Source of the DNA: Lumbricus rubellus
Taxonomy: Eukaryota; Annelida; Clitellata; Crassiclitellata; Lumbricidae
NCBI GenBank assembly: GCA_945859605.1
Contig: OX243822.1
Span: 11,637,127 to 11,701,126 of the forward strand
Reading direction: 5' to 3'
Length of the DNA: 64,000 bases
The position numbers and the translations under genes are program-made. Positions 1,170-63,519 of this stretch are shown here, piece by piece. The first letter of the stretch is position 1, and every line of letters begins with the position of its first letter. The notes beneath the pieces were generated by a model. The model saw only the letters and a list, made by a program, of their open reading frames with translations. It was not told the origin of the DNA and searched no databases.

Positions 1170-1189
1170 ATCCCGTAACTAGTCAACTA

Positions 1190-1513
1190 GGCCTAGTGCA
1201 ATATTAAATCTTCTCGCCACTCCTCTATCGGGAATTATAAACTGTTTTTTCGCCACTGGAATGGTCCCACCTGCGTTAAAAATAGCCAAAGTCACGCCGA
1301 TTTTCAAGCGGGGTGACAAATCCGAACTAGGCAATTATAGACCCATATCTGTTTTACCTTATTTTTCTAAGTTAGTTGAAAGAGCAATGCATAATAGACT
1401 ACGTTCTTGAAAGGAAAATCCTATACTTAATATAGCATCGAAATTTCGCCCAATCGAATTTGGAGTTCCCCAGGGCTCCATCTTGAGGGGCCCCTATTGT
1501 TTTTACTTTATAT
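1190..1513 (+). mobile_element. CR1-like LINE fragment, RT domain, left part
   Basis: Translation gives the reverse transcriptase signature NYRPISVLPYFSKLVE, followed after a deletion by the palm motif FGVPQGS. It closely resembles the RT of the longer element at 7.06-10.92 kb (NYRPISVLPFFSKFFE). The sequence between fingers and palm is mostly missing. The fragment breaks at 1513, where a hAT element is inserted, and resumes at 2916. Confidence 0.85.
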
Positions 1514-2915
1514 TAGGGCTGTTGTTCGATTAAAAATTTTAATCGAAATTAATCGCACGATTAATTTTTTTAATCGAAATTAACGCTAAATTAATCGCAA
1601 TACCTTTCCGTCAAATAAGATTAATATATTATATTAATCTTATTATTTTCTAAGGACCCCTGAAGCATAAAATTGTAATGACTGAATGTATTCTTTCTAT
1701 TGCAAACATATTAAATAAGCTTTGGCTTAGGCCTATTGAATTTCTGCATTTAGTTTATTGAACAGTTTTGTATGAAAGACATAATTGAAACGCTGTTCAA
1801 ATCAGTCCGCTGCTCAAAATTCGCTAATTTTTTCATTTGAGCGACCCTTAATTAAAATGATATAAGCTTAGGCCTAAATCTGAAAATGAGGCAACCGTTT
1901 TCTGACTATCAAAATTAATTATTTGTTCAGCCAATTGTAGCCTATAAGCTTAGGCAGACCAGTTTATTTACACTGCAGGTCGGTTCAAGGCAGCGGTTCC
2001 CAACCCGTGGCCCGCGGGCCAAAAGTGGCCCGCGAGGTCTAAAAAAAAATGGCCCGCCAGGCCTCAAGAATGGCCCTCCTCTCTCAAAGAATTAACAAAA
2101 ATATTTGAAAAAATTGACAATTCGGACAGGATAGAACATAATATATTCTATCCTGCCCAAATTTTCAATTTATAACTACAAATTATTTTATTTTGAAGTC
2201 TTTAAACATCAAGCATTCTACTTTGAATCAATTATAACAATTTTTATATGCTCTTAGTTAATTAAATTTTAGCATTGTGGCCCCTTAAATGCCCTAATGT
2301 CCTTTAACTAAGAAAAAGTGGCCCTCGTGTCCTCCAACTTAGAAAAAGTGGCCCTCCAGCCAAAAAAGGTTGGGAACCACTGGTTCAAGGGATGCTCTTA
2401 TTAGCCTAATTAGCAATAGTAGGTCTGCTATTGAACCTCATTATTTAGTCACAACTTTTCACAAGAGGTTGCAGTTCTTGCCAAACCTCGTATCAGTTTG
2501 TCCTTTGTAAACATTTATCATTTGAAACCTGTATCCATTGGTCTTGCCATCTCCTGGAGTTCAAGCAACGTAGTCGGACGGGGTGAGGAAACAACCTTAG
2601 TGCACGAAGCGATGCAGCCGATGTTGACGACTCATCGTTAGCGATTAATGCATGTTTTGGTTCGCATGCAGGCGATAATTGAGCAAAGAATTGGTAGTGC
2701 TACGATAATACTCAAATTATTTTTTGGAATTTTTGCCAAAGAATGTATTACTAGTTTTAAGTATGAGCCTTCCTTTTAAAACGAGGTTTTTCTGCCTCTG
2801 ATTCCATTTTAATCAGATCTAATTAACGCGTGCGATTAATGCGTTAAAATTTTTAATCGCAAAATTTTTTAACGCGTTAATCGCACGCGTTAACGCGATT
2901 AAGTCAACAGCCCTA
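1514..2915. mobile_element. non-autonomous hAT element inserted in the CR1 fragment
   Basis: The ends are TAGGGCTGTTG and CAACAGCCCTA, inverted to one another. Flanking 8-bp direct repeats ctttatat lie at 1506-1513 and 2916-2923. Removing the element and one repeat rejoins the RT reading frame of the host CR1 (LLFLLYINDLP-like). Subterminal regions are rich in TTAATCG-type short repeats in both orientations. No transposase is visible. It contains a second hAT element at 1991-2382. TIR plus 8-bp TSD is the hAT hallmark. Confidence 0.88.
1991..2382. mobile_element. hAT MITE nested in the hAT element
   Basis: The termini CAGCGGTTCCCAACC and GGTTGGGAACCACTG are inverted repeats. The flanking 8-bp target duplication gttcaagg (1983-1990, 2383-2390) is perfect. 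The interior is made of repeated GTGGCCC/GGCCCGC blocks at both ends and an AT-rich core. No coding capacity. Its perfect TSD makes it the youngest of three nested layers here. Confidence 0.92.
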
Positions 2916-3760
2916 CTTTATATAAATGATCTGCCTCATGCTTCCTCTTTATTGCATTTTGAGCTGTTTGCGGATGATTCGAACGTTTTTATATCGCACA
3001 AATCCCATGAAAACCTATTTCAAATAATTGTAAGTCTCGAACTAGGCCTACCCCTCGTGGGTGACTGGTTTAAAGCAAATAAACTCTTTTTAAATTTAAG
3101 TAAAACATCCTATGTTCTCTTTAATTCCCACAGGCAAATCTCCCCCCCCCCCTACGCAAGCACTCCCATTACTTATTGATGGTGTACCCATCCCCAAATA
3201 GAAAAAGAAAACTTCTTGGCATAGGTGTCGATCAGAATCTGAACTGGAAGGAACACATTTCCCAAATATCTATTAAACTGGCCAAAAATATCTGTATTCT
3301 ATCTGGTATCTCATATAAGTTGCCAACTAACATATTAACCAACCTTTACTACTCATTAGTCTACCCATATTTAGCATATCGCAATTTTGTCTGGGCCTAG
3401 AACTATAGGCTTACTTCGAGTCTTACACGTTTGATTATTTTGCAAAAAGGGCAGTTAGACTAATTACTAAATATTCTTACAAGTCTCATACTGCCCAACT
3501 TGTTGCCCTCAACGGCATTCTAAAACTAGATCAAATAAGAATATATCAAACTGGTGAATTTATGTTTCGCTATAAGCATGGCCTATTACCTCAAACTTTT
3601 GCCAACTTTTTAACACCGGTTCACTCTTACAGTACTAGAACAGCCTCCAACAATAGACCGACATTAAATTTTCCCAATTAGCCTTTCTTACCACCATACA
3701 TATTCAAATCTTCTTTTCACAACACAACTTCTCGTTGATTATTAATATTTTACTTCATAA
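2916..3760 (+). mobile_element. CR1-like LINE fragment, RT palm to C-terminus
   Basis: It continues the fragment from 1190 after the hAT insertion. Visible motifs are YINDLPHAS, then LFADDSNVF (the RT catalytic FADD box), then a thumb region NWKEHISQISIKLAKN. Frames are broken by stops and by short insertions, including TAGGCCTA at 3043-3050 and TAGGCTTA at 3406-3413. Both are 6-nt additions relative to the related element at 9.6-10.0 kb. It ends about 130 bp before GPCR-1. Confidence 0.88.
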
Positions 3761-3799
3761 TATGCAATTATATGCATCGCTAACTCACATCATCAATAT

Positions 3800-3886
3800 T
3801 TGCATGTTTCAGGAAATTGAAGCAACTCTAATCTTTAAAAGATTGTTTGAGTGACATCCTATACCATATCCGTCATTTTTGAAGCC
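3800..3886 (+). promoter_or_regulatory. conserved leader upstream of GPCR-1
   Basis: The block containing accatatccgtc just before the start codon has counterparts in front of all four GPCR copies (consensus TCCTACTCCATATCCGTG). This copy is the most divergent. It is probably 5'UTR or proximal promoter duplicated together with the genes. Function is inferred only from conservation. Confidence 0.5.
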
Positions 3887-5533
3887 ATGATTTTCAACAC
3901 TCTTATCAACTGGAACTTTTTTCTCTCAATCTTCAGTTACTGTGTTGTTACGCAGTCTCTAAAATTTAATGTCGGAGGCTCAAACGTCGACTCCACATTG
4001 ACAATGACCAACACTGAAACAAGTCAGAGGAAGACTCAAGATCGCACTACCAGCATCTGCGGAAAAGGATGCATGTCAATGGATATTTCTACAAGCGACG
4101 ACTCAACCAACCATCAACTAAATCCAACGCATGTTATTCAGACCAGTTTTAACGTTGTCGGTGCTGTAACGGTTGTCCATTCTCAATCGAAAGCAAAGGA
4201 GGCGTTGGATCCGTTTGACGAAGTTGACTTCACAACAGCTACTAACAGAGTGACGACTATTCAAATAGAGACAGCTGCAGTCGACGGTTCTCAAAATAGT
4301 AATACGACACTTTTCGGAGGCAATGACATCGACATCTCTCGAGGAAATATCTTGTCCAACGTTGTCTACGAGAACAGCACGGACGACAGAAGACTGATAA
4401 GAAACTCTTCTTTTGGACTTGACCCTCAGCCGAATGCAACACAGATTTCAACTGTTGCAACAGGTGAAAATGCAACAATCTCGATTGCAGAGGAAGACTT
4501 CTGGCAAGAAAAACTTGCATTGACGCTGAACTCGCGGGTCCCTCCATTCCTGGTCATCATCGGGACCATCGGAAACGCCGTGTCAATCGTCACCTTCCAA
4601 CATCGTCATTTCCGTCACTCGTCTACTGGATTCATCCTGACCGCTTTATCCGTGGCGGACATTGGCGTGCTCAATACGTACCTCCTGCCTTCGTGGCTGA
4701 CATTGGAGTTTGGAATCCGCATTAAAACCGTCACAACATTCACCTGTAAGCTACACTTTGCTTCATACGTTTACCTACGCGATCTCGCTTCTTCGAACTT
4801 GATCCTGTTCACAGTGGAGCGAACACTTGCTGTGTGGTTTCCTTTCCGCTGTAAAGAACTGTGCAGTAAACGTCGCATCGTATTCATTTGGGTAATTATC
4901 TCCAGCACTCTACTTCTCCCGCTAACCTTCATATTTCTCGCTGACATTATTGTTCCAGCTACAGTCGGTTTGGATGAAAATAACATGACAAAGGTCGAGT
5001 ACTCATGCCCCATGGTGGATGAATACATGGGCCAGTCTGTCCTCCATGTGTGGGGAATTTTCGACACAGTCATCGCAGATTTTATTCCGCTATTAGTCAT
5101 CCTGATAGGAAACGTTCTCACCATTGTTCGTATTTGCAAGTCCAATTGGGAGCGTAAGACACAGATGGGGGCAGCAGCCACGACCTCAATGCAAATGACG
5201 TCATCTACAGCCAAGCTGATCGGAATCAGCGCCATGTATCTGATTTGCACCATCCCACTCGATGTCGTGTACCTCTATTACTTCAATACAGATGCGGATT
5301 CGCTCCAGAGGAAGAAGAAGGCTATCTACGACCTGGCTTTTCGCGTTGTAATTCTGTGCTATAATGCGAACAATGCTTTTGAATTCATCGTTTACTTTAC
5401 CACTGGTCGGAAGTTCAGACAGGCGTTTCGAGAAACGTTTCTACCATGTCGTCGAAAGACCACCAACAGAAACGCACGGAAAACGGACGGGACTCGCAGT
5501 GCAAACACCGGCGTAACATCGTCGGATATGTGA
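3887..5533 (+). CDS. orphan class A GPCR with long ectodomain (GPCR-1)
   Basis: Intronless, 548 residues. The ATG at 3887 is chosen because an ATG occupies the same place in all four paralogues; the open frame extends further up only through a GTG. An N-terminal hydrophobic segment ending near CVVTQS is a likely signal peptide. Residues ~30-217 form an extracellular Ser/Thr/Asn-rich region with several N-x-S/T sites and a CGKGC cysteine pair. Seven transmembrane segments follow from ~218 (PPFLVIIGTIGN). The DRY box is replaced by ERT (E311-R312-T313), and NPxxY by NNAFEF (~495-500). A TM3 cysteine (TCK) and an ECL2 cysteine (YSCP) could form the class A disulfide. ICL3 carries the conserved SNWERKTQMGAA, and helix 8 is GRKFRQAF with a cysteine (LPCRRK). 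The family looks like peptide-receptor-type rhodopsin GPCRs, but the ligand is unknown. This copy is intact. Confidence 0.9.
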   Translation: MIFNTLINWNFFLSIFSYCVVTQSLKFNVGGSNVDSTLTMTNTETSQRKTQDRTTSICGKGCMSMDISTSDDSTNHQLNPTHVIQTSFNVVGAVTVVHSQSKAKEALDPFDEVDFTTATNRVTTIQIETAAVDGSQNSNTTLFGGNDIDISRGNILSNVVYENSTDDRRLIRNSSFGLDPQPNATQISTVATGENATISIAEEDFWQEKLALTLNSRVPPFLVIIGTIGNAVSIVTFQHRHFRHSSTGFILTALSVADIGVLNTYLLPSWLTLEFGIRIKTVTTFTCKLHFASYVYLRDLASSNLILFTVERTLAVWFPFRCKELCSKRRIVFIWVIISSTLLLPLTFIFLADIIVPATVGLDENNMTKVEYSCPMVDEYMGQSVLHVWGIFDTVIADFIPLLVILIGNVLTIVRICKSNWERKTQMGAAATTSMQMTSSTAKLIGISAMYLICTIPLDVVYLYYFNTDADSLQRKKKAIYDLAFRVVILCYNANNAFEFIVYFTTGRKFRQAFRETFLPCRRKTTNRNARKTDGTRSANTGVTSSDM

Positions 5534-5866
5534 TAAGCGTGTCCTATTGCGCTGTGTTTACATAATTAGGCCTATGTGGAACATATTTTATTTTTAATCT
5601 ATGTTGTCAAAAACCTTTTTCGCTTTTTGTTTTTTCCCCTGAAAAATACCGCTGTTCGTTTTTTTTTAGCGTCCCGTTTTATTCATTTATTAAAATTTTC
5701 ATGTAACCAAAAATTTATTTGTTCTACTGTTCATAGTTATTTCTTTAATTTATTTTTTAAAATTGCTATAGGCCTACATTTGTGTCTCTGTACAATAGGC
5801 TAGCCTACTTTCAAGGATTCAGCTGATTTAACTGCTGAACGTCATCCAAAATAGCAATGTGCAAGA

Positions 5867-5872
5867 AATAAA
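5867..5872 (+). terminator. candidate polyadenylation signal of GPCR-1
   Basis: AATAAA lies about 335 bp past the stop codon, before a MITE at 5945. It is the first canonical signal downstream. No transcript data are available. Confidence 0.4.
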
Positions 5873-5944
5873 ATTAATACAATTATTTGATATCAAGTTC
5901 AGGCCTATATAGGCCTATACAATTTAAAATGTTAACATTTTTAG

Positions 5945-6369
5945 TAGGGCAGTCCCAAAATCACGGTCAAAAATTGAAAAAATCACGGCATACTTTTGTA
6001 AAAATCCCAAAATTCACGGCACCGTGATTTTCCGTGATTTTTCACATTTTCAGCACTTTTTTGTGTAAAAAAAACCGTTACAATGGTTGTATAAACGAGT
6101 ATTTATGAATGAGTCTTCACTTGTCAGCGACATCATTCACTCCTCAAAACAGAAATTTCTTAAATTAGCCTAATTTAAGGGTTCCGCGCGGTTTTGGTCG
6201 TCGACGCCATTTTTGCCGTGTTTCGCAACCATTTTAACGTGTTTTCACAAAAAAGTGCTGAAAATGTGAAAAATCACGGGAAATCACGGCAAAAAGCAAA
6301 ATTCACGGCAAACGGCGAAATTCACGGTTTCCGTGATTTCCGTGAATTCGTGATTTAGGGACTGCCCTA
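5945..6369. mobile_element. hAT MITE with foldback interior
   Basis: The ends TAGGGCAGTCCC / GGGACTGCCCTA are perfect inverted repeats. The 8-bp target duplication atttttag (5937-5944, 6370-6377) is exact. Long internal arms built on GTGATTTTTCACATTTTCAG and its reverse complement let much of the element fold into a hairpin. There is no coding sequence. Confidence 0.92.
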
Positions 6370-6489
6370 ATTTTTAGGTACAATTTTTAATGTAGACCTG
6401 CACTTTATATGCTATGGGCCATTGGGCCTACATAAGTAACATAACAAAGTTTTGAGATTGAATGCTAATGCTAATGATGTGACTTACTT

Positions 6490-7040
6490 GACTTATGGCT
6501 TTGACGATGCTTTCGCACGTGACAGCCGCCCAGCTATGGAAAATCTCCACTTCTCTCTCTCTTGAGCTTTGTGTGTAGCCTCCTGTATGGACCAACCCAT
6601 CTCCCGACAGTCCTCACGTATCATGTCGACCCATCTCTTCTTTGGTCTTCCTTTTTTTTCCATGCACATATCCGTTGACAGCTATTTTCGGGTATCTCTC
6701 ATCCCGCATTCTGGATATGTGGCCAAAGTAGCGTAACCGTTTGCTCTGTATTTTGTGTATTATATCATGCTGAATATTCAGTCTGTTGTATATCTCTGTA
6801 TTCCTAATCCTATCCCTTCTCGTAACACCTTCTATCTTTCGTAAGCATGCCATTTCAAACACCCTCAACCGCTGTTTCTGTGCCTCCCTCAGCGTCCAAG
6901 TCTTCGAATTGTATAACAATGCACTCAGCACCAATGTCTCATACATCTGAACTTTTGTGGCTTTTCCTATTTCCTTCGAGCTCCAAACCTTACCTAGCAC
7001 CTGTAGTATTCCTCTGGCCAGCCCGATTCTTCTGTCCATG
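6490..7040 (-). mobile_element. non-LTR retrotransposon C-terminal fragment
   Basis: The minus-strand frame at 6614-7039 reads YETLVLSALLYNSKTWTL, then RVFEMACLRKIEGVTRRDR, then RLRYFGHISRM. This is the thumb and post-RT region typical of RTE/L1-type polyproteins. The upstream RT core is absent. It is 5'-truncated and no longer functional. Confidence 0.8.
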
Positions 7041-7059
7041 TCTTTTTTAGATTCTGCTA

Positions 7060-8421
7060 ATGATGTACCGGTATGTTATGTTTTTTATTTGCATAGGCCT
7101 ACTATATATGATTAAGCTTAAAATTAATTGCATATTTCGATGTTTGTATATAATCACTGATAGTGATCACCAATTGAAGGCACATTGTTTTCTGCACTCT
7201 AGGGATGATCCTTGTTCACTCTGTGTAGGAAAAGTATGCCTATGTCCCACTTGTATTGACAGGGAATTCCCCTTTTGTTGTGATGATGATGATGAGGAAA
7301 CATGCCAAGACCGTGGACCACGCAATGACCTGTATTATAATAGAACCAATCCCTTACTTTGTACATCTACTGCACCAAGCCTAAATTTGATTGTTAATGA
7401 ATTTGAAAGTCGCCCTTTTCTAAACTGTCCTGACCTTGACCCTGATAGTAATTACTTCAATGATATAACCTTTGATAGTCCCTATAGTGCCCCACATTCC
7501 CTACAACCCGAATTCTCTACTTCCCAAAATTGCTTAACAGTTATGCATATAAACTGTCGAAGTATATTACCAAAATTACCTGAGATTAGAGATCTCTTAG
7601 ATATTCTCCCCGTGTCCATCTTGGGACTCTCTGAAACTTGGTTAGACGAAAATCAAATTGACTTAATTAACATACCTGGTTATAACTTCGTCCACAAATC
7701 AAGAGGTTCTTCTACGGGGGGTGGAGGGGTGGGCTTCCTGATTAAAGAGGGAATTTCCTACGAAATTATAGAAGATTCATGTCAGGGCCCCATGATCTTG
7801 TCCCCATCCTTTGAAGGATATTTCCTGAAAAATCATCTAAAAGTAGGATCTATTGCAGCAGGAATTATTTACAGGCCACCTGACCATAACCTTGATGATT
7901 TCGTAAATGATTTAGATTGCTTAATAACAAAACTTTATAAAAAGTCAAAAGATCTACTATTGATGGGAGACTTTAATGCGGACTTGTTAAAAATCGCAGA
8001 ACATAGGAGTACTGCAGAGTTCTACAGTTGCATGACCTCCCATCATTTGTTACCTGCCATCACCAGACCAACGAGAATCACTTGTACCTCTTCCACACTT
8101 ATAGATAATATATTCACCAATACTTGGCCAAGGCTAACTAAGTCAGTCATCCTAGCAATGGACATCTCTGACCACCTACCTATCCTAGCTCAGTTTGGTT
8201 ATGGTCCTCTACCTTGCAACAAACCTTCTGTTGGTACTCATCGACTAATCACGGAGCCAAAGAAAACTGCTTTTAATGAAGCCCTTGCCCTGATTGACTG
8301 GTCTCCTGTTTTGGAAGCCTGTGCCAACCAAAATGCTAATGAGGCATATGACTTATTCCAATCCAAATACATGGAGTCCTACAATGAATTCTTTCCTCTC
8401 ACTCTAAATAATTGCGGGTGA
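7060..8421 (+). pseudogene. LINE ORF2 endonuclease segment
   Basis: The APE-type endonuclease starts near 7540. Motifs in order are MHINCRSIL, LGLSETWLD, GGGGVGFLIKEG, AGIIYRPPD, LLMGDFNADLL, TLIDNIFTN and SDHLPIL. These supply the Asn, Glu, Asp-Asn, and Asp-His positions used for target-DNA nicking. A cysteine-rich stretch (CSLCVGKVCLCPTC) precedes the domain and could be a zinc-binding segment. The frame closes just before the PWMTKGLL linker that normally joins the RT. Confidence 0.88.
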
Positions 8422-8492
8422 AATTCCACCCCCAAAAAACCTTGGATGACAAAGGGTCTCCTCAAATCCTGTAGAAAAAATCTGCGCTATAT

Positions 8493-10397
8493 CTGAAGTT
8501 TATAAAAAACCCAAACGATAGCAATAAGCTTAAATTTGTTTCTTATAGAAACAAATTTAAATCATTGAGAATTCAGGCCGAAAAAAATTATTATGCTTCA
8601 GAATTTTGTAAATATAGCAACAACTTGAAGAAAACCTGGAACCTCTTGCGTACTCTTATGGGGACTAACGATAATGTAAATAACAATGCCTTATCCTTAA
8701 CAGTCGACGGAGTGAAGGTTTCTGATCCCGAGACTGTAGCAAACAATTTTAATACTTATTTCACGGAGATAGCCCAGTCACTTGCAGCCAAACTTCCCAC
8801 TGCCACGAGTTCCTTTGAAAAATTCATGCCTTCGTCACTTATCGAATCTTTTGGACTTAGTGAAACCTCCCCAGAGGAATTTATTCGACTCGGGCAATCC
8901 ATAAATTGTTCACATGGCAGAGGAGTTGATGACATTGATCCAAGCATTGCACTTCTAACCCTACCCTCTATTGCTCACTTATTATCTGATATAATAAACT
9001 GTTCTTTTAACAGTGGGGTTTTTCCACAATCATTAAAAACTGCAAAAGTGGTTCCAGTTTATAAAAAGGGGGTTAAAGACGATGTAACAAATTACAGACC
9101 TATTTCAGTACTTCCATTTTTCTCAAAATTTTTTGAAAAAGCCATGTTTGAACGTCTTAATAATTTTTTTTCTAAAGGAAATGTCCTCTTCCCTTCGCAA
9201 CATGGATTCCAATCTGGACACTCTACCTATATGCCCTTGATGAGTATGCAAGACAAAATTTCCAATGCAATCGAAAATAAGCAGTATGCAATAGGTATTT
9301 TTTTCGACCTGGCAAAGGCCTTCGATACCGTTAATCATGACATCCTATTAAAGAAATTAAGCACTTATGGAATCCGGGGTACCCAGTTAAATTGGTTTTC
9401 AAGTTATTTTACAAATCGATCCCAGTTGGTTTCCTGCAATGGTGCTCTGTCTAATTTACGGCAAATTAACTTTGGAGTTCCCCAGGGGCCTATTCTCGGT
9501 CCTTTATTATTTCTTATTTATGTGAATGATCTCCCAAATGCATCTCCTTTATTGTACTTTATACTCTTCGCTGATGACACCAATGTATTTTACTCCAACT
9601 CATCTCTTGAAACCCTATTTAATGATGTTAACTTTGAATTGAAAAATGTAGCCGAATGGTTCCAAGCAAATAAACTGTCATTAAATCTTGATAAAACCAA
9701 TTATATAATCTTTAAATCACATAGAAAGAGTTATGATGCAGGAAATATGGGGGTGTGCATTGATGGGGTTCCACTCACTCAGGTAATATCAACCAAATTC
9801 CTAGGAGTATATATAGATCAGCACCTAACCTGGAAAGACCACATAAAAATTGTATCTAATAAAATTGCTAAAAACCTTGGAATATTATCCCGTACCTCCC
9901 AGTTAGTACCTCCTCAAATTCGTCTCACCTTGTATTATTCACTCATTTACCCATACCTCACTTACTGTAACATAATATGGGCCTCCACCTATAAATCTAG
10001 TCTTCTGAATTTAATGAAGCTCCAAAAGCGAGCTATTAGATATATAGGAAATCTGCCCTATGGGACCACGACTGAATCTAAATTCCGGGAATATAGCCTT
10101 CTAAATGTTTATCAAATTAGGCAGGTGCAGTTAGGCGAATTTATGTTTAGATACTTTCATGACCTATTACCTTCCGTGTTTAAGAATTTCTTCCTCCATA
10201 CTACTAAGGTGCACTCATATCATACTAGACACGCTGACTCTTACCATTTGCCTCACGCCCGCACCAATATCCGACGCTTCTCTGTTAAATACAGTGGGGC
10301 TCAAACATGGAATAAGATTCCCCTCTCCATCAGACAGCTGCCTAGCCTTCGAATCTTTAAGTCAAAATTGCGTGCCCTGATTCTTGACAATAAATAA
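8493..10397 (+). pseudogene. LINE ORF2 reverse transcriptase segment
   Basis: Frame opens around 8493 (LKFIKNPNDS). RT motifs in order are VPVYKKG, NYRPISVLPFFSKFFE, FPSQHGFQSGHST, FFDLAKAFDTVNHDILL, FGVPQGPILGPLLFLIYVNDL, then LFADDTNVF with the catalytic Asp pair. A thumb (WKDHIKIVSNKIAKNL) and the usual C-terminus (GAQTWNKIPLSIRQL) follow. This half is uninterrupted to its stop. Confidence 0.9.
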
Positions 10398-10733
10398 TAA
10401 TTTATTCTGGTGCATTATGACTATTGTTGATTCTCATTACAGAGTGAACAAATCGTCAAACTTTTAAATATCTTCTCCTACTCTGAATAAATTATATCTA
10501 AATCCTTACTACCCATGCAGCATCCCGACCATCCAGCGACCTCTGTGCCTTAACTTCATCTAGATCTACTAGAGGCCCTATGATCATCGAATAATTGTGC
10601 ATTTGTGCTATTAGTTAAGTTAGTTAAGGTGTTTGCTGTTTGTTTTCTTAAATTAGTTTTTTTTTCACTTATACTTTATGTTAGGACCACGGTACGGCAA
10701 CCTATTGGCCATCATCATCTTGGTATAGTCGCC

Positions 10734-10780
10734 CAGGGGACTCACCTAGCGGGGTTGTAAGACCCCTTCCGAGTCCCCTG
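10734..10780 (+). other. stem-loop in LINE 3'UTR
   Basis: CAGGGGACTC and GAGTCCCCTG pair perfectly over 10 bp. Between them GGGGT and ACCCC form an inner stem. It lies ~140 bp before the element's terminal repeats, where LINEs often carry a structure recognised by their own RT. That role is inferred. Confidence 0.75.
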
Positions 10781-11043
10781 TGCAACCAAATAGAAACCTT
10801 TGGCATCGTTATTTAAGTAATGTTTTATTATACTTATTAACCTTGTGTTTATGATGCTTTATTTGATTTGTTCCTGTTGTTTTTGGTTGCCAAATAAATG
10901 ATTTGATTTGATTTGATTTGATATAATGTAGCCTACACGCTATGTTCTGTTTTCATATAATGCTACCGCGGTTCGATAAACCACATACTTACTTACTTAC
11001 TTACTTATGTATGTCCTTCAAAAGGAAAGTTGAAGTTGATTAA

Positions 11044-11300
11044 ATGCGAAAATGTATTATTTATTTGTTATATTATTTATTCACCCAGAGGCCGCCGTTA
11101 TTGTATAGGTCTATAGGCCTACTGGTTAACCTAGTCCTGCGTAGGCTACAGTCGAGGGAGAAGAGATACGGGTTGCAGTTTTGGGCAGGGTTCGCGAATT
11201 GGCATCGGCAGTTTGCTCCTAAGGTCTATGGCCCTGCCAACTGGAACAGTCTACCCAAAGAAATCCGCTGATTACATACATCAGCCACTTTAAAACCCTT
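11044..11300 (+). mobile_element. LINE C-terminal remnant
   Basis: Translation includes QSREKRYGLQFWAGF and VYGPANWNSLPKEIR, the 'GPxxWNSLP' end of L2/CR1-type ORF2. It is followed by a (CA)n tract near 11310-11328. 5'-truncated. Confidence 0.65.
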
Positions 11301-11329
11301 GCACGTGCACACACACACACACACACACT

Positions 11330-11885
11330 AATTTATATTATTTAAACTCAGCTTTCTACTTGTTAGTTAAGCTATATATAGGACCTATAGTTAAGACTTT
11401 AACCTGCATTTATACGTAACTTAGAGCCTATACTGTAGGCCCCTATAAGTGTTATACAGTCATAAAAGACTCATAATAACGTATAGTAGCCTATTAGTCC
11501 CCTTATCTAATCACAACACACCATCCTGTATATTACAGTGTATAACTTCTTGAAGTAAGCTAATATAGGCCCCTACTAAGCAGGATTCGTTCCTTTTAGA
11601 GTGCACTGCCTATTGCTCCGTAATCTGTCTTCTAACTCCTTTTCCGAATGAGTTAATAAGTTAATTATAACATGTGTTATAGGCCTACCTATAGGCCTGT
11701 GTGTTATGTGTTGTGCTATGTTCTGAATATTACCGGTACGTCTTATTGTGGAACAATAAATAATTTTGAATGTGAAAAAATGGCTACTTCTCTCGTCCGA
11801 TTGCATTATTCTACATAATAATGAATAGTGCATAACATATATAAATATATATGATATATATCAAATCGTATGAAACGGCGCTATA
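11330..11885. other. no recognisable gene
   Basis: AT-rich unique sequence with TAGGCCTA motifs (e.g. near 11677) and no open frame with a family signature. Confidence 0.5.
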
Positions 11886-11887
11886 CC

Positions 11888-12632: not shown

Positions 12633-12639
12633 GTCGATC

Positions 12640-13650: not shown

Positions 13651-13654
13651 GGAT

Positions 13655-14479: not shown

Positions 14480-14484
<5 letters not shown>

Positions 14485-14514: not shown

Positions 14515-14517
<3 letters not shown>

Positions 14518-55800: not shown

Positions 55801-58800
55801 TCTCTTCGGTGTACGGTCTGTGTTCTCTTTTTTGTGTTTGTAGAGGCGCCCTTGTAACGGCATGTGCTGTGCTATGGCGCCATAGAAATTGTCATTATTG
55901 TTACCATTAGTATTATTATTGTTGTTGTTGTTGTTATTATTTATTATTATTTTATTTTTTTCACCCGAGGTGTATATGATTCCTCAGGTTTTAAAATATA
56001 AGATTCTCATGCGGAATTATTATTATTGTTACTATTATTATTATTATTACTATTATTATTACTATTATTAAATTATTATTACTACTATTACTATAATTAT
56101 TAATACTATTATTATTGTTATTATTATTATTACTCAATACAGCAGTGTTGACTAGGAGGTGTAGTTGGACCAGGTATCTCGAACCAATTGTCTGCCAGGG
56201 TGCGGATCTGAAACCCAGACTTTTCGATTAACAGTTCAGCACGCTGACCTCTTCACTCTTGAGCACCCTCGGAATCATCTCTAAATTATGAACAGACTGA
56301 TTATTACGTGTAATGGAAATTTCATGTGTTTAGCATGCCGTAATGAAGCAGTCTGACATGCAAATGGTGTGTGTTTGTCCTGATAGTTGTTACTTGTTAT
56401 GTATTATGTTAGGCATACATTGAAAATACTTTATCTGTGAACAGTTCTGAAAGTTAAATGGTGTTTGTTTCTTCTGTTACTTGAACATGCATAACTAGGC
56501 GTGTAACATTGGCATTCCCTAGTAGATTGTTATTGTAATTTGGCGCATTGGATAACACACTGGCATGGGGATCAGCAGAGCTGAGTTCGATTTCCGAAGC
56601 CTCCGTAGGATAGGTCTATGTGCTTTTTGGGCTGCTATTAGCGCCATGTATAGCAGGCTGTCAGTAGTTAAGTTTGTTATTAATTTAAGATTGGTTCATG
56701 TAATCATACTGTGTTTTACAGAATGAATAATGAAGAAACATTATTAATTAGTATTATTTTCTATCATCATCATCATTTATTAAACTTAACATTTTAGTAT
56801 TATTATTATTATTGTTATTGCTATTGCTATTATATATCAATTGTTATTGCATCTTTGCAGATTGCTTCCACAATGGCCAAGCGAGAGTTGAAGGCATATG
56901 CAAAGGCGGGGGCAGTTGCAGAAGAAGTGATTAGTGCCATTCGCACGGTCACAGCTTTTGGAGGACAGAAGAAGGAGAGCGCGAGGTAAGGCAGGAAAAA
57001 AACATTTCTCTTAGCTTTGATCTAAATTGAAATGCAGTTTTTAAGACCTTCAGCAATACTAGTGCTCATTTTCTCTCATCATCATCATCATCAATATCCT
57101 TAGGCTCAATGCCCGAAGGAGTCCGACGCCACTCTCTGTCTGAGTCTGTCTCGCGTCATGTTGCCCAGCCTCAACCGGTCCGGTCAGCAGGTCTGCTCCA
57201 TACCATTAACATCTTGGAGCATCTAGACCACATTGTCTGATTGAAGAGAATCGTGAAAAAGAAGCATGAAGGACAACGTGGGTCAATGCCCGTTGTGTCC
57301 CACGCTCTCTCCCCCGACTCTCTCCATTGGTCTGTCCTGACCGACCTGTGCATGTCTGCTCCACATCATAACACCTTGAAGCATCTGGGTAGCTATGTCA
57401 CTTGTGTCGTGGTTTTGGCGGATTACAATCGTCTTGGTTTTTCACTGCCAGCGTATCGCCACCCATCTGGCAAACCTTCCTCTTTTGTCCGGGCTTAGGA
57501 CCGGCACAGGGATGTTGTTGGTTCCCTGTGGCAGAGGATGGATGCAGTTTAACGTCGTGCCCAGGACAGACCCATTTTCTCTGCTAGATTTTAATTCTCG
57601 AAATTCTATGGTGCTGAGTTGTCTTACGTTACATTTGCCTGTGTCCAGGTACGCCGTAAATCTGGTTGATGCGAAGGACTTTGGATTAAGGAAGGGCTGG
57701 ATAACGGGCATTGGAATGGGTGCGATCTTTCTCATCATGTTCGGTTCATACGCTCTCGCGTTCTGGTATGGGTCGAAACTTGTTCGAGAGGGTACCGGCT
57801 ACACTGCTGGGATCATGCTTACGGTGAGAGATGCTGAGATGCTTACAGGTGTCTGGTGTAAGATGTTTACAGATTTGTATCTGGTGTAAGATGTTTACAG
57901 ATTTGTATCTGGTGTAAGATGTTTACAGGTATCTGGTGTAAGATGTTTACAGATTTGTATCTGGTGTAAGATGTTTACAGGTATCTGGGTGTAAGATGTT
58001 TACAGGTATCTGGTGTAAGATGTTTTCTGGTATCTGATGTAAGATTGTAATTGTAATTGTAATTGTAATCGAACATTTATATAGCGCCACTTCAAGAGAA
58101 CTCCTCAGAGGCGCTCCCGACCTGACACAAAACCATAATCAAAGAGAATGGTTTTCAAACGCTTGCGGAAAAGGGGCAAAGAAAGACAAAGAAGTTCATT
58201 ACGGAGACTAATAGGCAGAAGAGACTAAGATATTTTCTGGTATCTGGTGTAGGATGTTTACAGGTATCTGACATAAGGTATTTACATGTTTATGGTGTAA
58301 GATGTTTACAGGTATCTGGTGTAAGATGTTTTCTGGTATGTGGTGCAAGGATTTTACAGGTATCTGGTGTAAGATGTTTCTGGTATCTGGTGTAAGATGT
58401 TTACAGGTATCTGGTGTAAGATGTTTTCTGATATCTAGAGAAAGATGCCTACAGGTATCTGGTGTAAGATGTTTTCTGATATCTAGATAAGGATGCCTAC
58501 AGGTATCTGGTGTCAGATGTTTAAATGTATTAGGTAAAAGAAGTTTACAGGTATCTGGTGTAAGCTGTTTTCTGGTATCTGGTTTAAGATGTTGATAGGT
58601 CTATGTGGTTTAAGGCAATGTTGATGTTCAGTGTGGTGCTCAAGTTGCACATATATCAAGTTATTTTTGAAGTCAAAATGATCTCTTGACTCAAGTGTTT
58701 TTTTGTAAGCCCAGTACTTAAAAGGTTTCTTTATGGTGGGTATTGTTGTATGTATGCATGCATACTTGGATTTTTACATACATACATGCATGCATACATG

Positions 58801-61800
58801 CACACAATGTGCCTGTATTTATAATTTGTTATATATGTATGCAGCCATTCTATATACATGTAGATAGTAGATTGCATTGCATTGTAGATGCAATGATGCA
58901 TACTGGTGAAAATTTGTGAAACTACACTTTATTTTATTTATGTGGACTATTAAGATGATGCGAATGTTGCATTAAAAAACCCAGGATTATTTAGAGCAAA
59001 GAAAGATTTTGGGGCAATTGCTTTACAATTTACAACCAGCTGCATCAATTGGTTTCCAGTTCTTTAAAGTATTAGACATCAAATGTGATGCTGAGGCTCG
59101 AAATCTGTCACTTGACACTCCCTACAATGTAGATGTTTGCCTAGAAGCTTGAAATAGGTGAGCGGTCAAGAATGTAGAATAGTCCTCAATTCAGCAGATG
59201 GCTATGTTTGAATTCACCATAATTTGCAGAGTAGTGACCAGATTTTGATGTCGTTTGCGTTATTTGATTCCGAATATATTTATCCCGTTATTGCCCAGAA
59301 CAGTTTTGCAGAATTCATAAGTGATTTCTGAGGACTTTGATGACATGAACATTGAACAATCTGAAACTTTTTATTCGATATTCTCACTATAAACTGATGA
59401 AAAAATCAAGCGAGTATAATTTTAGACAGAAAAAGTATTTTATTGTAGAACCACTGTTGCACTAAATGGCTGAATTAAAAAAGTCAATAACCGACATTTG
59501 ATGGATTTTGATCTTTGGTGTCTTAAATGAACTTATAGTAAATGACATGCGTATATATGACAATGGCACAATATGCTTCTGTTCTAGGTTTTCTTCTCTG
59601 TGCTCATTGGAGCTTTCTCCATCGGCAACGCAGCGCCCCACCTCCAAGACTTTGCAAACTCCAGAGGTGCTGCCCATACCGTCTACGACCTCATTGACAT
59701 GGTCAGTCCTTGCAGGAGGCGGCAATATTTTCTTCACAATTGTTCGCAAATAATAAGCTTCTCTGTATCTATACATAAATGTTACTCATCAGTTGTAGAT
59801 ACTGCTCATCAATTGTAAATGTTGCTCTTCAGTTGTAGATATTGCTCATTAATTGTAAATATTACTCATCGATTGAAAAACATCACTCATCAGTTGTAAA
59901 TATAATTATTCACTTCGTAATTGTTAATATGGATCAGTAATCATAGTGCACAGAGTTAAAAAAATTGCAAACCTTGATAAGTTTACTTCATGAGGGGCTA
60001 GCAACTAGGTTCACATCTTTTAGTCTGTCGTCCCCCCCGCCCAACTGTGTCTACCGTATACCTACAACTTGCACGATTCTTTTGACAAGTATAATCCTCT
60101 TTTTCTCATAACATGTCCATACCACCTCATTCTGGTCTCTTGTACCTTGTCAGTTATACAAAATACATGCCACCCTGAGCTTCTTTATATTTTTGTACGT
60201 GAGTAGATAACCTTGATGAGGCGCTATATCAAATTGCTAGTAAATAAATATATTAGTAAATTGCAATAATTGTACAGAAAGGCGAATGCAAAGTCTCACC
60301 AGTCAGAAATTACATGTATGTATCATCGATGGGAGATAACTTACGAGAAAAACTTCAATTTTTGTAAAGAACATTTTGCGGTCCACGAAAGGGCTCTAAG
60401 ATATCGTAAAAATACGTTGCGGTATGCATCTATTGTTATCACTACTACTCATATCTGATTACATGAATCTGGGTTTTTGCAGTGCAGCACAACTTCATTT
60501 TCATTCCTACATTCCAATTTCCAATTTCTCCTCCGTCAAGCGCAGGCTGACGATGAGGCCTTTACAAGACGTCTCCAAGTTGCTCTGTCTCTGGTCTTAT
60601 CCACCGCTCTCCGTATGTCCAAGCCCTTCATTTCTAGGTTCTCCATCACGTTCTTCATCCATGTCTCTTTTGGTCTTCCTCTGCTTCTTTCCCCTTCTGT
60701 TTTCCATCTAGCACTGTCGCTGGTAGTCGTTTCTCCTCCATCCGTGTTACATGTCCGAACCAAGTCAGGCTTCTCTTCCTGATTCTGTCGATTACTGTTT
60801 CATTTTGTCCGGTTTCTTCACGAGATATTCTATCTTCGATCTGCACAGTATTCCTCTCAGCCAGCTCATCTCTGCTACCAGCAGTCTTCTTTCATCTTTT
60901 TTTCTCAGGCACCAGCATTCTGAGCCATATAGCAGCACTGGTATAACCAGAGATTAGTAATTATTATTAAAATCCTAATGTAGATTTGACTTTTCTGTTA
61001 GTGGTGCTAATGGAAAGTTCTTTCTGTGATTATAGGTTCCACATATTGACAGTAGTTCAGACGCAGGTATTGAGCTGACTGAGGTACAAGGGAACATAGA
61101 GTTCCGCGATGTTCACTTCACTTATCCATCGCGAGAAGATGTACCGGTAAGCTTTTCTTTTCGGCGTGGAGTCTGGTGTAAGATGTTTTCTGGAGTCTGG
61201 TGTAAGATGTTTTCTGGTATACCTAGAGTGACATGTTTACAGAATTCTAGTGTAATATGTTTTCTAGTATCTAGCGTAAGATGTTTTATAGTATCTAGTG
61301 TAAGATGTTTTCTGGTATCTAGTGTAGGATGTTTTCTAGTATTTAGAGTAAGATGTTTACAGGTATCTAGTGTAGGATGTTTTATGGTAGATAGTGTGAC
61401 ATGTTTACAAAATTCTAGTGTAAGATGTTTTATAGTATCTAGCGTGAGTTTTCTAGTATCTAGTGTAAGATATTTTCTGGTAGCTAGACTGCTAGAGTAA
61501 GATGTTTACAGGTATTTAGTGTAAGAATTTTTCTGGTAGCTAGAGTGACATGTTTACAGGTATCTAGTGTAAGATGTTTTCTGGTATAGCGTAGATCATC
61601 TTTTTTTTAGTAATATTTTTTATAGGTGCAGCATTTTGTTATACTCGTATTGTAACATATGCTGATACTGATATATGTAAGGTGAACTCACAACTGCATG
61701 GTGATGCCGCATGATAATGCAGTAAAAAAACAATAACAAGTTTAACAGGAGTCAAATTGAACTGCATGGCAGCCTGCAAGGTGTCGATCTGTCCTATTGT

Positions 61801-62665
61801 TTATTTATTCAGCTCATCCTTTCAGGATATATCCTGGAAAGTAGATTGCATACAGGTAGACTCTAATGATTGAGTCATTGATGGATTGTAACCTTTGTTT
61901 TTTGGTTGATTGATTGTTCGATCAATCGATTGCCTACTTGATTGATTTGGTGGTTGACGAGCGAGTTTTTTCTCCACAGATCTTGAACGGCTTGAACCTG
62001 AAGGTCAGTCGAGGTCAGACAGCGGCACTTGTGGGATCAAGTGGATGTGGCAAGAGCACAACTATCCAACTGCTGCAGAGATTCTACGACCCTATGAAGG
62101 GACAGGTCAGTAATCCTATGGGATTTATTTCAACACTTATTTCCGCTACAGTTTTATTCTTTTTTTCTGCATTGTCTTAAGGAGAGGACCGTGCATGGGG
62201 CATGGTGAATTTGGTAACACTTCCTGCCCATGGCTGCCTATATGGATTAGCTTGAGGGATGGATCGCTTTCTTCTGCAGTTATAAGTCATTGAGGAATTC
62301 CCTATCATTGTCTTGTACTTGTGGTATCTTTATCTTTCGATTTAGAGGAACTAAATCAATACGATTGTATTTGCTGTTTGGGAATGAGGAGCCACATAAT
62401 GAAAATGCAATTTGACGGTTACAATACATGTGTGCTTAACCTTACGTTCCCTTGGGCTTACCCTCTGACATCAACACATCTGACCATTTCAGTTACTTGC
62501 CTGTACTTGTGCTATACTGTATGTATACTATACATGTATACGGTGATCAATAAAGTATATTGATTGATTGATTGTTTGTTTTGTTTGTATGTGCACTTGT
62601 TATAGTTCTTCTTCAAGCTCTCTGTCTACTCAGAGGTGCTCCCGAATGCAGAACGGACACTGCTC

Positions 62666-62698
<33 letters not shown>

Positions 62699-63143
62699 GA
62701 TGGATGGCTGATTGATTGTATGATATAGTGATAGACTTATATATTGATTGATTAATTGATTGATTGATGGATTGATTGATTGATTGATGGATTGATAGAT
62801 TGATTGATTGATTGTTTGGTTGGATGGATGGCTGATTGATTGTATGATAGACTTATATATTGATTGAATGGTTGATTGATTGATTGATTGATTAATTGAT
62901 TGATTTATGGATTGATTCATTGATTGATGGTTGTTACAGGTGCTGATTGATGGTGTCGACATCCGTACGGTGAATCTCAAATCGCTGAGACAGCACATTG
63001 GAGTTGTTAGCCAGGAACCGGTATTGTTTGGCACAACAATCGCAGAAAATATCCGCTACGGCAAAGAAGGAGTGACAATGGACGAGATACAGAAAGCAGC
63101 CAGGAATGCAAATGCTCACGACTTCATCCAACAGCTTCCAAAG
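49658..63143 (+). CDS. ABCB1: ABCB1/P-glycoprotein-like transporter, 5' half
   Basis: Eleven coding exons with GT-AG introns join to 590 codons and run off the window: 49658-49891, 51217-51446, 53007-53113, 54313-54484, 55445-55616, 56861-56985, 57649-57823, 59588-59701, 61036-61146, 61980-62105, 62940-63143. All phases agree. The product has a Lys-rich cytosolic N-terminus, TMD1 with six helices ([35 protein letters not shown] and others), the coupling segment [23 protein letters not shown], and NBD1 up to Walker A (SSGCGKST) and the Q loop ([19 protein letters not shown]). The ABC signature and Walker B lie beyond 64000. Full ABCB proteins use ATP to export hydrophobic compounds from the plasma membrane. 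The first extracellular loop is longer than in human P-glycoprotein. Whether it is ABCB1 or another full ABCB cannot be settled from half a gene. Confidence 0.93.
50040..50215 (-). mobile_element. LINE C-terminal remnant in intron 1
   Basis: Minus-strand translation reads [20 protein letters not shown], typical of the extreme C-terminus of L1/RTE-type ORF2. Confidence 0.65.
50220..50660. repeat. AAT/ATA-rich microsatellite region
   Basis: Several imperfect AAT, GAT and ATA trinucleotide tracts separated by short unique stretches, within intron 1. Confidence 0.85.
50678..51129. mobile_element. hAT MITE in intron 1
   Basis: CAGGGGTGTCAAA / TTTGACACCTCTG inverted ends; exact 8-bp TSD ttgtacat (50670-50677, 51130-51137). 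Subterminal GCGGGCCAG repeats lie at both ends. It sits only ~80 bp upstream of the exon 2 acceptor. Confidence 0.93.
51217..51446 (+). CDS. ABCB1: ABCB exon 2
   Basis: Acceptor TTTTCAG, donor GTGAGC. Encodes [17 protein letters not shown]1 ([14 protein letters not shown]) and the start of extracellular loop 1 with one N-x-T site (NIT). Ends phase 2. Confidence 0.9.
51515..51660. repeat. TATG/CATG tetranucleotide repeat
   Basis: About 145 bp of GTATGCATGCATG units ~70 bp past the exon 2 donor. Confidence 0.9.
52014..52333. mobile_element. hAT MITE in intron 2
   Basis: CAGGGGCGGATCCAG / CTGTATCCGCCCTTG ends; perfect TSD ccagtgtc (52006-52013, 52334-52341). Inside, a ~70-bp module around GGCCATCAACTTTTTTGGCG is duplicated in tandem. 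Confidence 0.92.
52605..52870 (+). mobile_element. L2-like LINE 3' end in intron 2
   Basis: Reads as a frameshifted L2 C-terminus ([13 protein letters not shown], then VFHHL). The tail is GGGAGCGCTTCTGAATGGCT to AAGCGCTTTACAAATG, ending in ATACA repeats. Confidence 0.75.
53007..53113 (+). CDS. ABCB1: ABCB exon 3
   Basis: Acceptor TCTCTAG, donor GTTAGT. Encodes [20 protein letters not shown] and NNALNYI, i.e. the second half of the enlarged loop and the start of TM2. Confidence 0.85.
53675..54088. mobile_element. non-autonomous TIR element in intron 3
   Basis: Arms at about 53677-53712 and 54041-54087 are inverted (TGTGACCTCGGTCGAGAAAA versus the complement of TTCTTTCGGCCAAGGTCACA). The interior is non-coding. 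Exact ends and TSD are uncertain. Confidence 0.7.
54313..54484 (+). CDS. ABCB1: ABCB exon 4
   Basis: Acceptor CTTTACAG, donor GTAAGT. Encodes TM2 ([16 protein letters not shown]) and the intracellular helix [20 protein letters not shown]. Confidence 0.92.
54585..54632. repeat. CTGT/TC microsatellite
   Basis: Short run of CTGT then TC/TG repeats about 100 bp past the exon 4 donor. Confidence 0.85.
55130..55910 (+). repeat. two copies of a SINE/LINE-like tail flanking exon 5
   Basis: GGCGCCCTTGTAACGGCATG..GCGCCATAGAAATTGTCATT occurs at 55150-55205 and 55848-55910, one on each side of exon 5 (55445-55616). The second passes into an ATT microsatellite. The bodies are not identified. Confidence 0.65.
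55445..55616 (+). CDS. ABCB1: ABCB exon 5
   Basis: Acceptor GTTTTAG, donor GTAGGT. Encodes [18 protein letters not shown], then TM3-TM4 ([17 protein letters not shown]). Confidence 0.92.
55900..56140. repeat. ATT/TTA microsatellite
   Basis: Imperfect TTA, TTG and CTA trinucleotides with one unique break, in intron 5. Confidence 0.9.
56198..56268 (-). mobile_element. tRNA-Asn-like sequence, pseudo-tRNA or SINE head
   Basis: On the minus strand, GGGTGC and GCACCC can form an acceptor stem. GAACTGTTAATCGAAAAGTC resembles the tRNA-Asn anticodon arm with GTT in the loop. The T-loop (GGGTTTCAGATCC) departs from consensus and the D arm is poor, so it is probably not a functional tRNA. Confidence 0.45.
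56500..56690 (+). mobile_element. tRNA-derived SINE (third family), copy 2
   Basis: A box TTGGCGCATTGG, B box GAGTTCGATTTCC. Shares TGGCATGGGGATCAG with the copy at 48690. Confidence 0.6.
56861..56985 (+). CDS. ABCB1: ABCB exon 6
   Basis: Acceptor CTTTGCAG, donor GTAAGG. Encodes [20 protein letters not shown] and the [19 protein letters not shown] coupling region. Confidence 0.93.
57649..57823 (+). CDS. ABCB1: ABCB exon 7
   Basis: Acceptor GTGTCCAG, donor GTGAGA. Encodes [20 protein letters not shown] and TM5 ([12 protein letters not shown]). A minisatellite starts about 15 bp past the donor. Confidence 0.92.
57838..58620. repeat. ~23-bp minisatellite in intron 7
   Basis: Units of GGTATCTGGTGTAAGATGTT with TTACAG or TTCTG variants, more than 20 copies. 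An L2 tail (58046-58230) is inserted inside. Each unit contains an acceptor-like TTTACAG and a donor-like GGTGTAAG. Confidence 0.93.
58046..58230 (-). mobile_element. L2-like LINE 3' tail inside the minisatellite
   Basis: Minus-strand tail with GGGAGCGCCTCTGAGGAG and GTGGCGCTATATAAATG, ending in ATTACA repeats. It splits the minisatellite, so the array existed before the insertion. Confidence 0.8.
58625..59585. other. intron 7, remaining part
   Basis: AT-rich, with a short CATG/TACA repeat near 58750-58810. No other element recognised. Confidence 0.5.
59588..59701 (+). CDS. ABCB1: ABCB exon 8
   Basis: Acceptor GTTCTAG, donor GTCAGT. Encodes [20 protein letters not shown] (TM6) and [18 protein letters not shown]. 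Confidence 0.92.
59780..59905. repeat. ~22-bp tandem array in intron 8
   Basis: Five to six units of TACTCATCAGTTGTAAATAT type, starting about 80 bp past the exon 8 donor. Confidence 0.85.
60536..60950 (-). mobile_element. non-LTR retrotransposon C-terminus in intron 8
   Basis: Minus-strand frames read [18 protein letters not shown] and, after a frameshift, [20 protein letters not shown] and [13 protein letters not shown]. This is a degraded post-RT region. Confidence 0.78.
61036..61146 (+). CDS. ABCB1: ABCB exon 9
   Basis: Acceptor GATTATAG, donor GTAAGC. Encodes [20 protein letters not shown] and the start of NBD1 with its A loop tyrosine ([10 protein letters not shown]). Confidence 0.92.
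61160..61585. repeat. ~23-bp minisatellite in intron 9
   Basis: Units of TAGTGTAAGATGTTTTCTGG, about 18 copies. Same family as the array in intron 7 but with TAG and TTCT variants predominating. It begins within ~15-20 bp of the exon 9 donor. Confidence 0.93.
61980..62105 (+). CDS. ABCB1: ABCB exon 10, Walker A
   Basis: Acceptor CTCCACAG, donor GTCAGT. Encodes [20 protein letters not shown], the Walker [11 protein letters not shown] and the stretch [13 protein letters not shown]. Confidence 0.95.
62592..62664 (-). mobile_element. SINE-1 3' fragment
   Basis: Only the tail side is left (reads AGTGTCCGTTCTGCATTCGG and GAGCACCTCTGAGTAG on the minus strand). It runs into the ATTG microsatellite. 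Confidence 0.65.
62664..62935. repeat. (ATTG)n microsatellite, imperfect
   Basis: GATT/GATG tetranucleotides over ~270 bp reaching to within a few bases of the exon 11 acceptor tract. Confidence 0.92.
62940..63143 (+). CDS. ABCB1: ABCB exon 11, Q loop
   Basis: Acceptor GTTACAG, donor GTTAGA. Encodes [20 protein letters not shown], the Q loop [20 protein letters not shown], then [18 protein letters not shown]. Confidence 0.94.
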
Positions 63144-63149
63144 GTTAGA

Positions 63150-63260
63150 AGGTCTTATGGGAGACGCCTAAATACATTATTGTCTTATAGGAGGTACCTA
63201 TTGTGTCATTGTCTTATAGGAGATGCCTATTGTGTCATTGTCTTGTATGTATGGTCTTTT
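63150..63260. repeat. short tandem array at the start of intron 11
   Basis: Three to four units of CATTGTCTTATAGGAGATGC type (~30-35 bp), beginning right after the exon 11 donor. Confidence 0.8.
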
Positions 63261-63519
63261 CTGTGCGTGTTGCTTGTTGCTGTTTAAGGCACTGTGTCAT
63301 ATCAAGGATGATTAGCATTGATCAAGGATGATTAGCGTTGCCCACCTCGTTTTTCTATGCTTGGGACTGGCACTGCCAAAGTATTAGCAGTGGCAGAGTT
63401 TTCTGTACTTGTTTACATTTCTGCATGGGAAGGGGTAGTTAAATGATAGCTATCCTGCTTGAAGAACAAGTAGATCTTGAAGATCAAATAGGCCTAGGTC
63501 TTGAAGAGTGATCTTGAAA

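Follow-up and report, generated by a model that had tools for sequence, protein, structure and literature searches.

Short GC cores between TA dinucleotides in a 64-kb stretch of Lumbricus rubellus as candidate transposon excision scars

The locus

The stretch of DNA described here, referred to as the window, comprises 64,000 nucleotides of the annelid Lumbricus rubellus (assembly GCA_945859605.1, contig OX243822.1, positions 11,637,127 to 11,701,126). It holds four paralogous receptor genes (GPCR-1 to GPCR-4), CR1 copies, dispersed repeats, and TA-flanked elements with inverted repeats. Spread among these features are short motifs in which a core of G and C separates two TA dinucleotides, foremost the palindromic octamer TAGGCCTA. 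The motifs are interpreted below as probable repair scars of the excision of a TA-specific element, and are called scars for brevity. The individual features are compiled in Table 1.

Table 1. Putative scars, candidate elements and receptor genes in the window
Feature	Position	Strand	Detail or basis
88 scars, five main forms	675..63496	.	43 TAGGCCTA, 26 TAGCCTA, 11 TAGGCTA, 5 TAGGGCCTA, 3 TAGGCCCTA
Two copies of TAGGCCCCTA, beyond the 88	11436 and 11566		motif count
TAGGCCTA scar in GPCR-3	21709..21716	+	paralogue alignment
TAGCCTA scar in GPCR-4 leader	29701..29707	+	junction read by eye
TAGGCCTA scar in dispersed repeat	26152..26159	+	alignment to two copies
TAGGCTTA, putative decayed scar in CR1 relic	3406..3413	+	protein alignments
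TAGGCCTA in the same CR1 relic	3043..3050	+	protein alignments
Nested double scar TAGGCTAGCCTA	5796..5807	+
425-bp element, TA-GGGCAGTCCC...GGGACTGCCC-TA	5945..6369	.	inverted repeats, TA at both outer ends
TAGCCTA at the exact centre of a TTAAAT..ATTTAA inverted pair	6166..6172	+	inside the 425-bp element
637-bp TA-flanked element, TACACTGTGCCCC...GGGGCACAGTGTA, CAC-ended	31404..32040	+	putative transposase relic at 31693-31947
TA-flanked inverted-repeat element, CAC...GTG ends (TACACCGTGAGTC...)	27776..28799	.	inverted-repeat search
Four paralogous receptor genes (GPCR-1 to GPCR-4)	3851-5533, 15564-17228, ~21413-23842, 29711-31385		Pfam 7tm_1 for the first

Enrichment of the octamer and its length variants

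A preliminary description of this DNA had estimated about 40 copies of TAGGCCTA where about one was expected. The estimate is borne out by the 43 copies counted on the plus strand of the 64 kb, set against a mean of 0.58 and a maximum of 3 in 100 dinucleotide shuffles of the window and an order-2 Markov expectation of 0.67. Among TA-N4-TA words, TAGGCCTA has the highest enrichment (64-fold, both strands), and among the 8-mers with at least ten copies in the window it is exceeded by poly-C alone. The length variants had also been called abundant. TAGCCTA and TAGGCTA together amount to 37 copies, compared with a mean of 5.75 and a maximum of 15 in the shuffles, and three longer forms, TAGGGCCTA, TAGGCCCTA and TAGGCCCCTA, add ten copies where about 0.3 are expected (5, 3 and 2 copies; order-2 Markov expectations of 0.14, 0.14 and 0.03). 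Within the 64-kb window, the excess over shuffled and Markov backgrounds is real. The inserted bases of the 88 scars make up approximately 0.78% of the sequence.

Sorted by core length, cores of 3, 4, 5 and 6 nt are represented by 37, 43, 8 and 2 copies. The two-base core TAGCTA is not enriched in the window (10 copies, 10.8 expected), nor is TAGGTA (11, with 12.0 expected), and TAGGGCTA, TAGGGCCCTA and TAGGCGCCTA have no copy there. A general excess of palindromes was ruled out, as TAGCGCTA, TACGCGTA, TAGTACTA and TAACGTTA all have zero copies. Microsatellite ones aside, four TA-N4-TA palindromes are clearly enriched, with the cores GGCC, CCGG, CATG and AGCT. The CATG class, TACATGTA, has 14 copies against 1.7 expected. 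TACCGGTA occurs six times (0.38 expected; at 7066, 11731, 21532, 26380, 37525 and 61142), as does TAAGCTTA (0.94 expected; at 1863, 1945, 7113, 8525, 12898 and 28800); these are possibly scars left by CC- and AG-ended elements, respectively.

Inspection by eye and column counts revealed no common sequence in the 25 nt on either side of the 43 TAGGCCTA copies, the sole signal being a base preference adjoining the TA. Rfam and tRNA scans gave no matches.

Length classes, decay and age

The 24 possible one-substitution relatives of TAGGCCTA are seen 31 times, with about 15 expected, giving an excess of about 16, while the excess is about 32 for the one-base-shorter forms. Decay should yield more substituted than deleted forms, and it was therefore rejected as the origin of the shorter forms, which appear to arise together with the long form, at birth. 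The small number of substituted forms suggests that the scars are young; as a crude estimate, 16/43 over eight positions corresponds to a mean divergence of roughly 4-5%.

The largely open CR1 frames at 7060-10397 contain one scar in 273 TAs, where 8.5 are predicted from the first 36 kb (P = 0.002), and two are found in the CR1 relic at 2913-3711, one of them decayed. The wave of scars may thus be older than the younger CR1 copy, although selection on open frames would give the same picture. In the four receptor frames there are two scars in 285 TAs.

Comparison of filled and empty sites

For evidence of gain, the window was compared with itself and searched with the joined flanks of 101 sites, of which 90 were scars, in six forms, and 11 belonged to four one-substitution relatives. 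An alignment of some kind spans the junction at 20 of the 101, many of these being short chance matches. At four sites, the comparisons support the addition of 5-6 nt at a TA such that TA stands on either side; three are supported by DNA and one, at 3406, by protein. Three of them had been proposed in the preliminary description and hold, namely those in GPCR-3, in the GPCR-4 leader and at 3406. The GPCR-3 scar is a gain of 6 nt relative to GPCR-1, GPCR-2 and GPCR-4, and its empty partner reads TA in the closest paralogue, GPCR-2, and TT in GPCR-1 and GPCR-4. The leader of GPCR-4 has 5 nt more than the three other paralogues (AATATCCTACTCCATA-GCCTA-TCCGTG against CCATATCCGT); MAFFT placed this 5-nt offset upstream, and the junction was taken by eye from the printed sequences. 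At 3406, TAGGCTTA, which equals TAGGCCTA with one transition, corresponds to two additional residues that are absent in 104 of 111 spanning CR1 alignments (E up to 10), and in 17 of 21 when a stricter span is applied. The fourth site, at 26152 in a dispersed repeat, faces six gap columns in the copy at 43864-43958 (minus strand) and seven in the copy at 37978-38095, the extra column lying within an A run.

The octamer at 3043 had also been put forward as a 6-nt gain whose removal restores the codon alignment. This holds in part: most relatives are indeed shorter here, but removal of 6 nt alone does not restore the usual length, because 88 of the 120 spanning alignments lack three residues (two are lacking in 8, five in 1 and none in 23). 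For the proposed double event at 27490-27502, the flanks are strongly diverged from the other copy of the dispersed repeat, and the aligner yields 7 columns, not 11. Three further comparisons, at 21157, 63489 and 20203, point in the direction of gain with poorer fits, that at 20203 showing an additional 3-nt difference. In no case was a full element observed in one copy of a window site where another copy had a scar. The window contains three nested double scars, the one listed in Table 1 and two at 27490-27502 and 32170-32183.

Candidate elements and transposase

Pairs of TAs were scanned for inverted repeats just inside them, which yielded three clear TA-flanked elements (Table 1). The 425-bp element ends in TAGGGCAGTCCC (TAGGGC...GCCCTA) and is the one clear candidate of the GG...CC donor type in the window. 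Five pairs start with GG; the other four sit inside an inverted duplication (17745-18109 versus 19748-20541) and are taken as internal to it.

An open stretch of the 637-bp element, LWPVNSPDLNLVDYRIWG..., matches the C-terminus of the IS630 family transposase (NF033545, E = 0.0028, 17.1 bits), and the relic also matches Pfam DDE_3 (E = 0.055); both matches are weak, fall below the curated cut-offs and cover the C-terminal part only. Judged by this CAC-ended relic, the IS630/Tc1/mariner superfamily was probably present at some time, a statement that applies to the relic and not to the GG family. TACATGTA is the scar expected from CA-ended elements with a 2-nt overhang, so that two of the enriched TA-N4-TA palindromes, those of GG and CA ends, have matching TA-flanked elements in the window. 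A weak inverted repeat at 50673-51134 has TACATCAGGGGTGTCA at one end, and its termini are presumably hAT-type-like.

Target preference and distribution

At the 88 reconstructed empty sites, a pyrimidine is found in 71% at position +1 and 63% at position +3 from the TA, compared with 51% and 50% for all TAs. The chi-square values (3 df) are 33.9 at +1 and 15.0 at +3, followed by 10.9 at +11 and 8.6 at +6. The targets of Tc1 and Sleeping Beauty are AT-rich and palindromic around TA, and the pyrimidine preference at +1 and +3 resembles them. Dyad symmetry of the flanks beyond this base preference was not significant (p = 0.09).

The scars are unevenly distributed, with 3.1 per 100 TAs in 1-36000, 0.52 in 36001-54000 and 0.13 in 54001-64000, which is a 6- to 24-fold lower density beyond 36 kb. 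Even this sparse part exceeds the chance level, with six TAGGCCTA in 28 kb against fewer than one expected in the whole window. TACATGTA lacks the positional bias of the scars, with five copies in the dense and nine in the sparse part. The sparse part contains a protein-kinase frame, which we take to be DYRK-like, an LSM-domain frame and ABCB-type transporter exons, and its CpG ratios are mostly lower; avoidance of transcribed, methylated gene bodies by the scars would be a guess.

The drop in density at about 36 kb adjoins a 335-bp TCTG/TCTC microsatellite (36071-36405). The DNA may change its origin at this long TCTG array; the sparse part is nonetheless above chance. Near the transporter exons, a satellite of diverged units, each about 24 nt long (AGATGTTTACAGGTATCTGGTGTA), occupies 57837-58045, 58226-58600 and 61172-61587.

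Scars in and around the receptor genes

Within a coding sequence, the 6-nt form would read as two extra codons, Arg-Pro or Gly-Leu, in two of the frames and would introduce a stop in the remaining one. The stop of GPCR-4 is provided by the TAGGCCTA scar at 31383-31390 (ATG TAG GCC TA). As GPCR-1 ends in ATG TGA TAA, GPCR-4 may once have had another stop, in whose place the scar now serves. The third receptor gene is interrupted at about 22855-23570 by arrays of a 15-nt repeat of the CGGGATTAA type with inverted halves.

Excision as the probable origin of the scars

During excision of Tc1/mariner elements, 2- or 3-nt 3' overhangs are left at the donor site, and their repair together with the duplicated TA gives a footprint, as described in PMC3878927 and PMC7827188. 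Applied to the window, an element would insert at a TA and duplicate it. The transposase would then cut one strand at the tip of the element and the other 2-3 nt inside, a step published for the superfamily and assumed here for the window sites, so that the 3' overhangs would consist of the element's last bases. Finally, end joining would fill and ligate the overhangs to TA-(GC core)-TA, as the core itself suggests. Two versions of the final step fit the forms seen. With a 2-nt overhang GG, fill-in would produce TA-GG-CC-TA (TAGGCCTA), and trimming would produce the short forms, e.g., TAGCCTA. If the overhang were GGC (3 nt), annealing through its self-complementary GC would give TAGGCCTA, and annealing along all three bases, with a central G-G mismatch, would give TAGGCTA or TAGCCTA; TAGCTA would not arise. 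The GGC version fits the missing excess of TAGCTA better and requires slippage for the longer forms; either version may apply.

Among the origins that the preliminary description put forward, one was excision of an element that is specific for TA and has GG..CC termini. The 5-6 nt gains and the GG-ended element in the window, a candidate donor, speak in part for this suggestion. We consider it probable, with considerable room for doubt, that a TA-specific element of the IS630/Tc1/mariner type, with TA-GG...CC-TA ends, left these sites behind as repair scars when it excised by cut and paste. It is the best reading because TA lies on both sides, the GC core is short and fixed, and the length classes arise at birth. 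Further support comes from the excess of TA-G2C2-TA and of its length classes, which TAGCTA and TAGGTA do not share, from the unrelated flanks, and from the four polarised gains, as well as from the pyrimidine preference of the empty sites, the TA-flanked elements that match the GG and CA classes, and the transposase relic.

Several observations weigh against this reading. The clear GG-ended element has GGG rather than GGC ends, and TAGGCCCCTA needs slippage in either version. If the two ends were processed independently, about 7 TAGCTA and 3 G1C3/G3C1 forms would be predicted above background by hand reckoning; neither excess is observed (Poisson 0.035 and 0.017). The trimmed forms of TACATGTA, TACAGTA and TACTGTA, are not enriched (10 copies, 10.0 expected), unlike those of the GG class. 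About 1.4 scars per kb demand very many jumps, and the 88 scars are accompanied by one clear donor-type element, a scarcity that would be expected if copies jumped repeatedly or were lost since. No transposase of the GG-ended family was found in the Pfam scan of 36 frames (35 distinct), a small share of all frames. The concentration of 80 of the 88 scars in 1-36000 (P = 2e-13, allowing for the number of TAs) is not predicted, nor is their clumping there, where 9 neighbours lie within 15 bp compared with 3.0 for random TAs (p = 0.0025). The earlier statement that all events hit a TA is supported at the four sites but is not established as a rule: the empty partner of 21157 reads GA, and the filled form at 21247 aligns gap-free to the region upstream of GPCR-2 at 70% identity. 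At 20192, the partner copy (18305) carries TAGGTCTA, which has the same length and is one substitution apart; this pair may represent decay of a shared scar or, alternatively, origin by substitution. The other TAGGTCTA, at 58596, falls within the 24-nt satellite and is probably unrelated to the scars.

Alternative explanations

An element-independent micro-insertion, in which GGCCTA or GCCTA is copied from a fixed template into TA sites by some repair, integrase or polymerase activity, would account for the very uniform core and for a scar density far above that of the visible elements, and it needs no proven donor. It is nevertheless unlikely, as a fixed core between two TAs is what excision produces and a TA-flanked element ending in TAGGGC is present in the window. 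Abortive or one-ended insertions, in which only the tips of an element become attached at a TA and the remainder is lost so that a full element never occupied the site, would have an identical sequence outcome and agree with the few full elements in the window. The published excision route already explains the same product, and to our knowledge no such pathway has been described for the Tc1/mariner superfamily; we regard this origin as improbable.

A similarly low probability is given to the idea that selection maintains TAGGCCTA, in the extended form R-TAGGCCTA-Y (purine and pyrimidine flanks), because proteins bind it or because it acts in chromatin. The perfect palindrome, the merely twofold excess of one-mismatch relatives and the flank preference would suit such a motif, but it does not explain why polarised 5-6 nt gains at TA are seen in a dead CR1 copy and a repeat as well as in receptor genes, and the length forms that break the palindrome are almost as frequent as the octamer (37 versus 43). 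An overlooked dispersed or tandem repeat family bearing the octamer is the least probable origin, and very much so. In two copy pairs, 20192 and its partner TAGGTCTA at 18305 as well as the repeat at 18850/27495, the two copies perhaps have a scar in common, yet the flanks of the 43 copies show no conserved column, and an ordinary repeat was rejected for most sites because the flanks are unrelated.

Relation to known systems

Like Tc1/mariner footprints, the scars combine a TA target duplication, few bases between the TAs and discrete length classes. Tc1 of C. elegans is reported to leave TACATGTA. The scars share with it the TA-XY-Y'X'-TA architecture, and the window additionally has enriched TACATGTA and CAC-ended TA-flanked elements; they differ in having GG/CC for CA/TG and in their one-base-shorter forms, of which the GGCC class has many and the CATG class no excess. 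The Sleeping Beauty footprint is C(A/T)GTA according to Table 1 of PMC3878927, with a net gain of 5 nt compared with 5-6 nt for the window scars. In contrast to Sleeping Beauty, the window core consists of G and C only (GGCC, GCC), which points to ends other than CAG, the scars reach 1.4 per kb, and the donor is a candidate only.

In rice, 8 of 94 putative DNA-transposon excision events were perfect, the remainder showing deletions, filler or both (PMC4423477). On the excision reading, the window would share with rice the accumulation of small changes left by excision, but one short product dominates in the window. A pogo-type element leaves footprints of 0 to 4 bp (PMC9976928), and PMC1838430 gives partly similar octamers, such as tgtaggcc, not TAGGCCTA. 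Among the matches listed in open-licence literature, no title dealt with a genome-wide excess of TAGGCCTA, and nothing in that literature linked TAGGCCTA to a transposable element plus a terminal inverted repeat. The chemistry is already known; the abundance and the core are unusual.

As an outside control, a pattern of three TAGGCCTA with gaps up to 30 matched 11 viral and 27 prokaryote loci. These 38 loci are mostly local tandem copies, with a few local clusters and few length forms. The control is weak, since the window itself would not match the pattern and dispersed copies elsewhere are not measured by it. One viral contig (L007:4561-4793) has seven TAGGCCTA in about 230 bp with varied flanks and no TAGSCTA forms. 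Protein relatives of CR1 and the receptors were absent from the viral contigs, save for one distant locus (L039) that was not used.

Implications

If the excision reading is true, the scars constitute a direct count of germ-line excisions, which is normally invisible since excised copies vanish. They would permit the dating of a transposition wave and the testing of repair rules via scar lengths, and they would map the activity of the wave, dense between the receptor genes and sparse around the transporter gene. On a broader view, which we hold tentatively and at slightly less than an even chance, this would be a footprint-saturated animal genome, in which one TA-specific GG...CC family has moved in the germ line so frequently that it has left scars rather than copies as its main legacy, a legacy that could be dated and mapped without the element.

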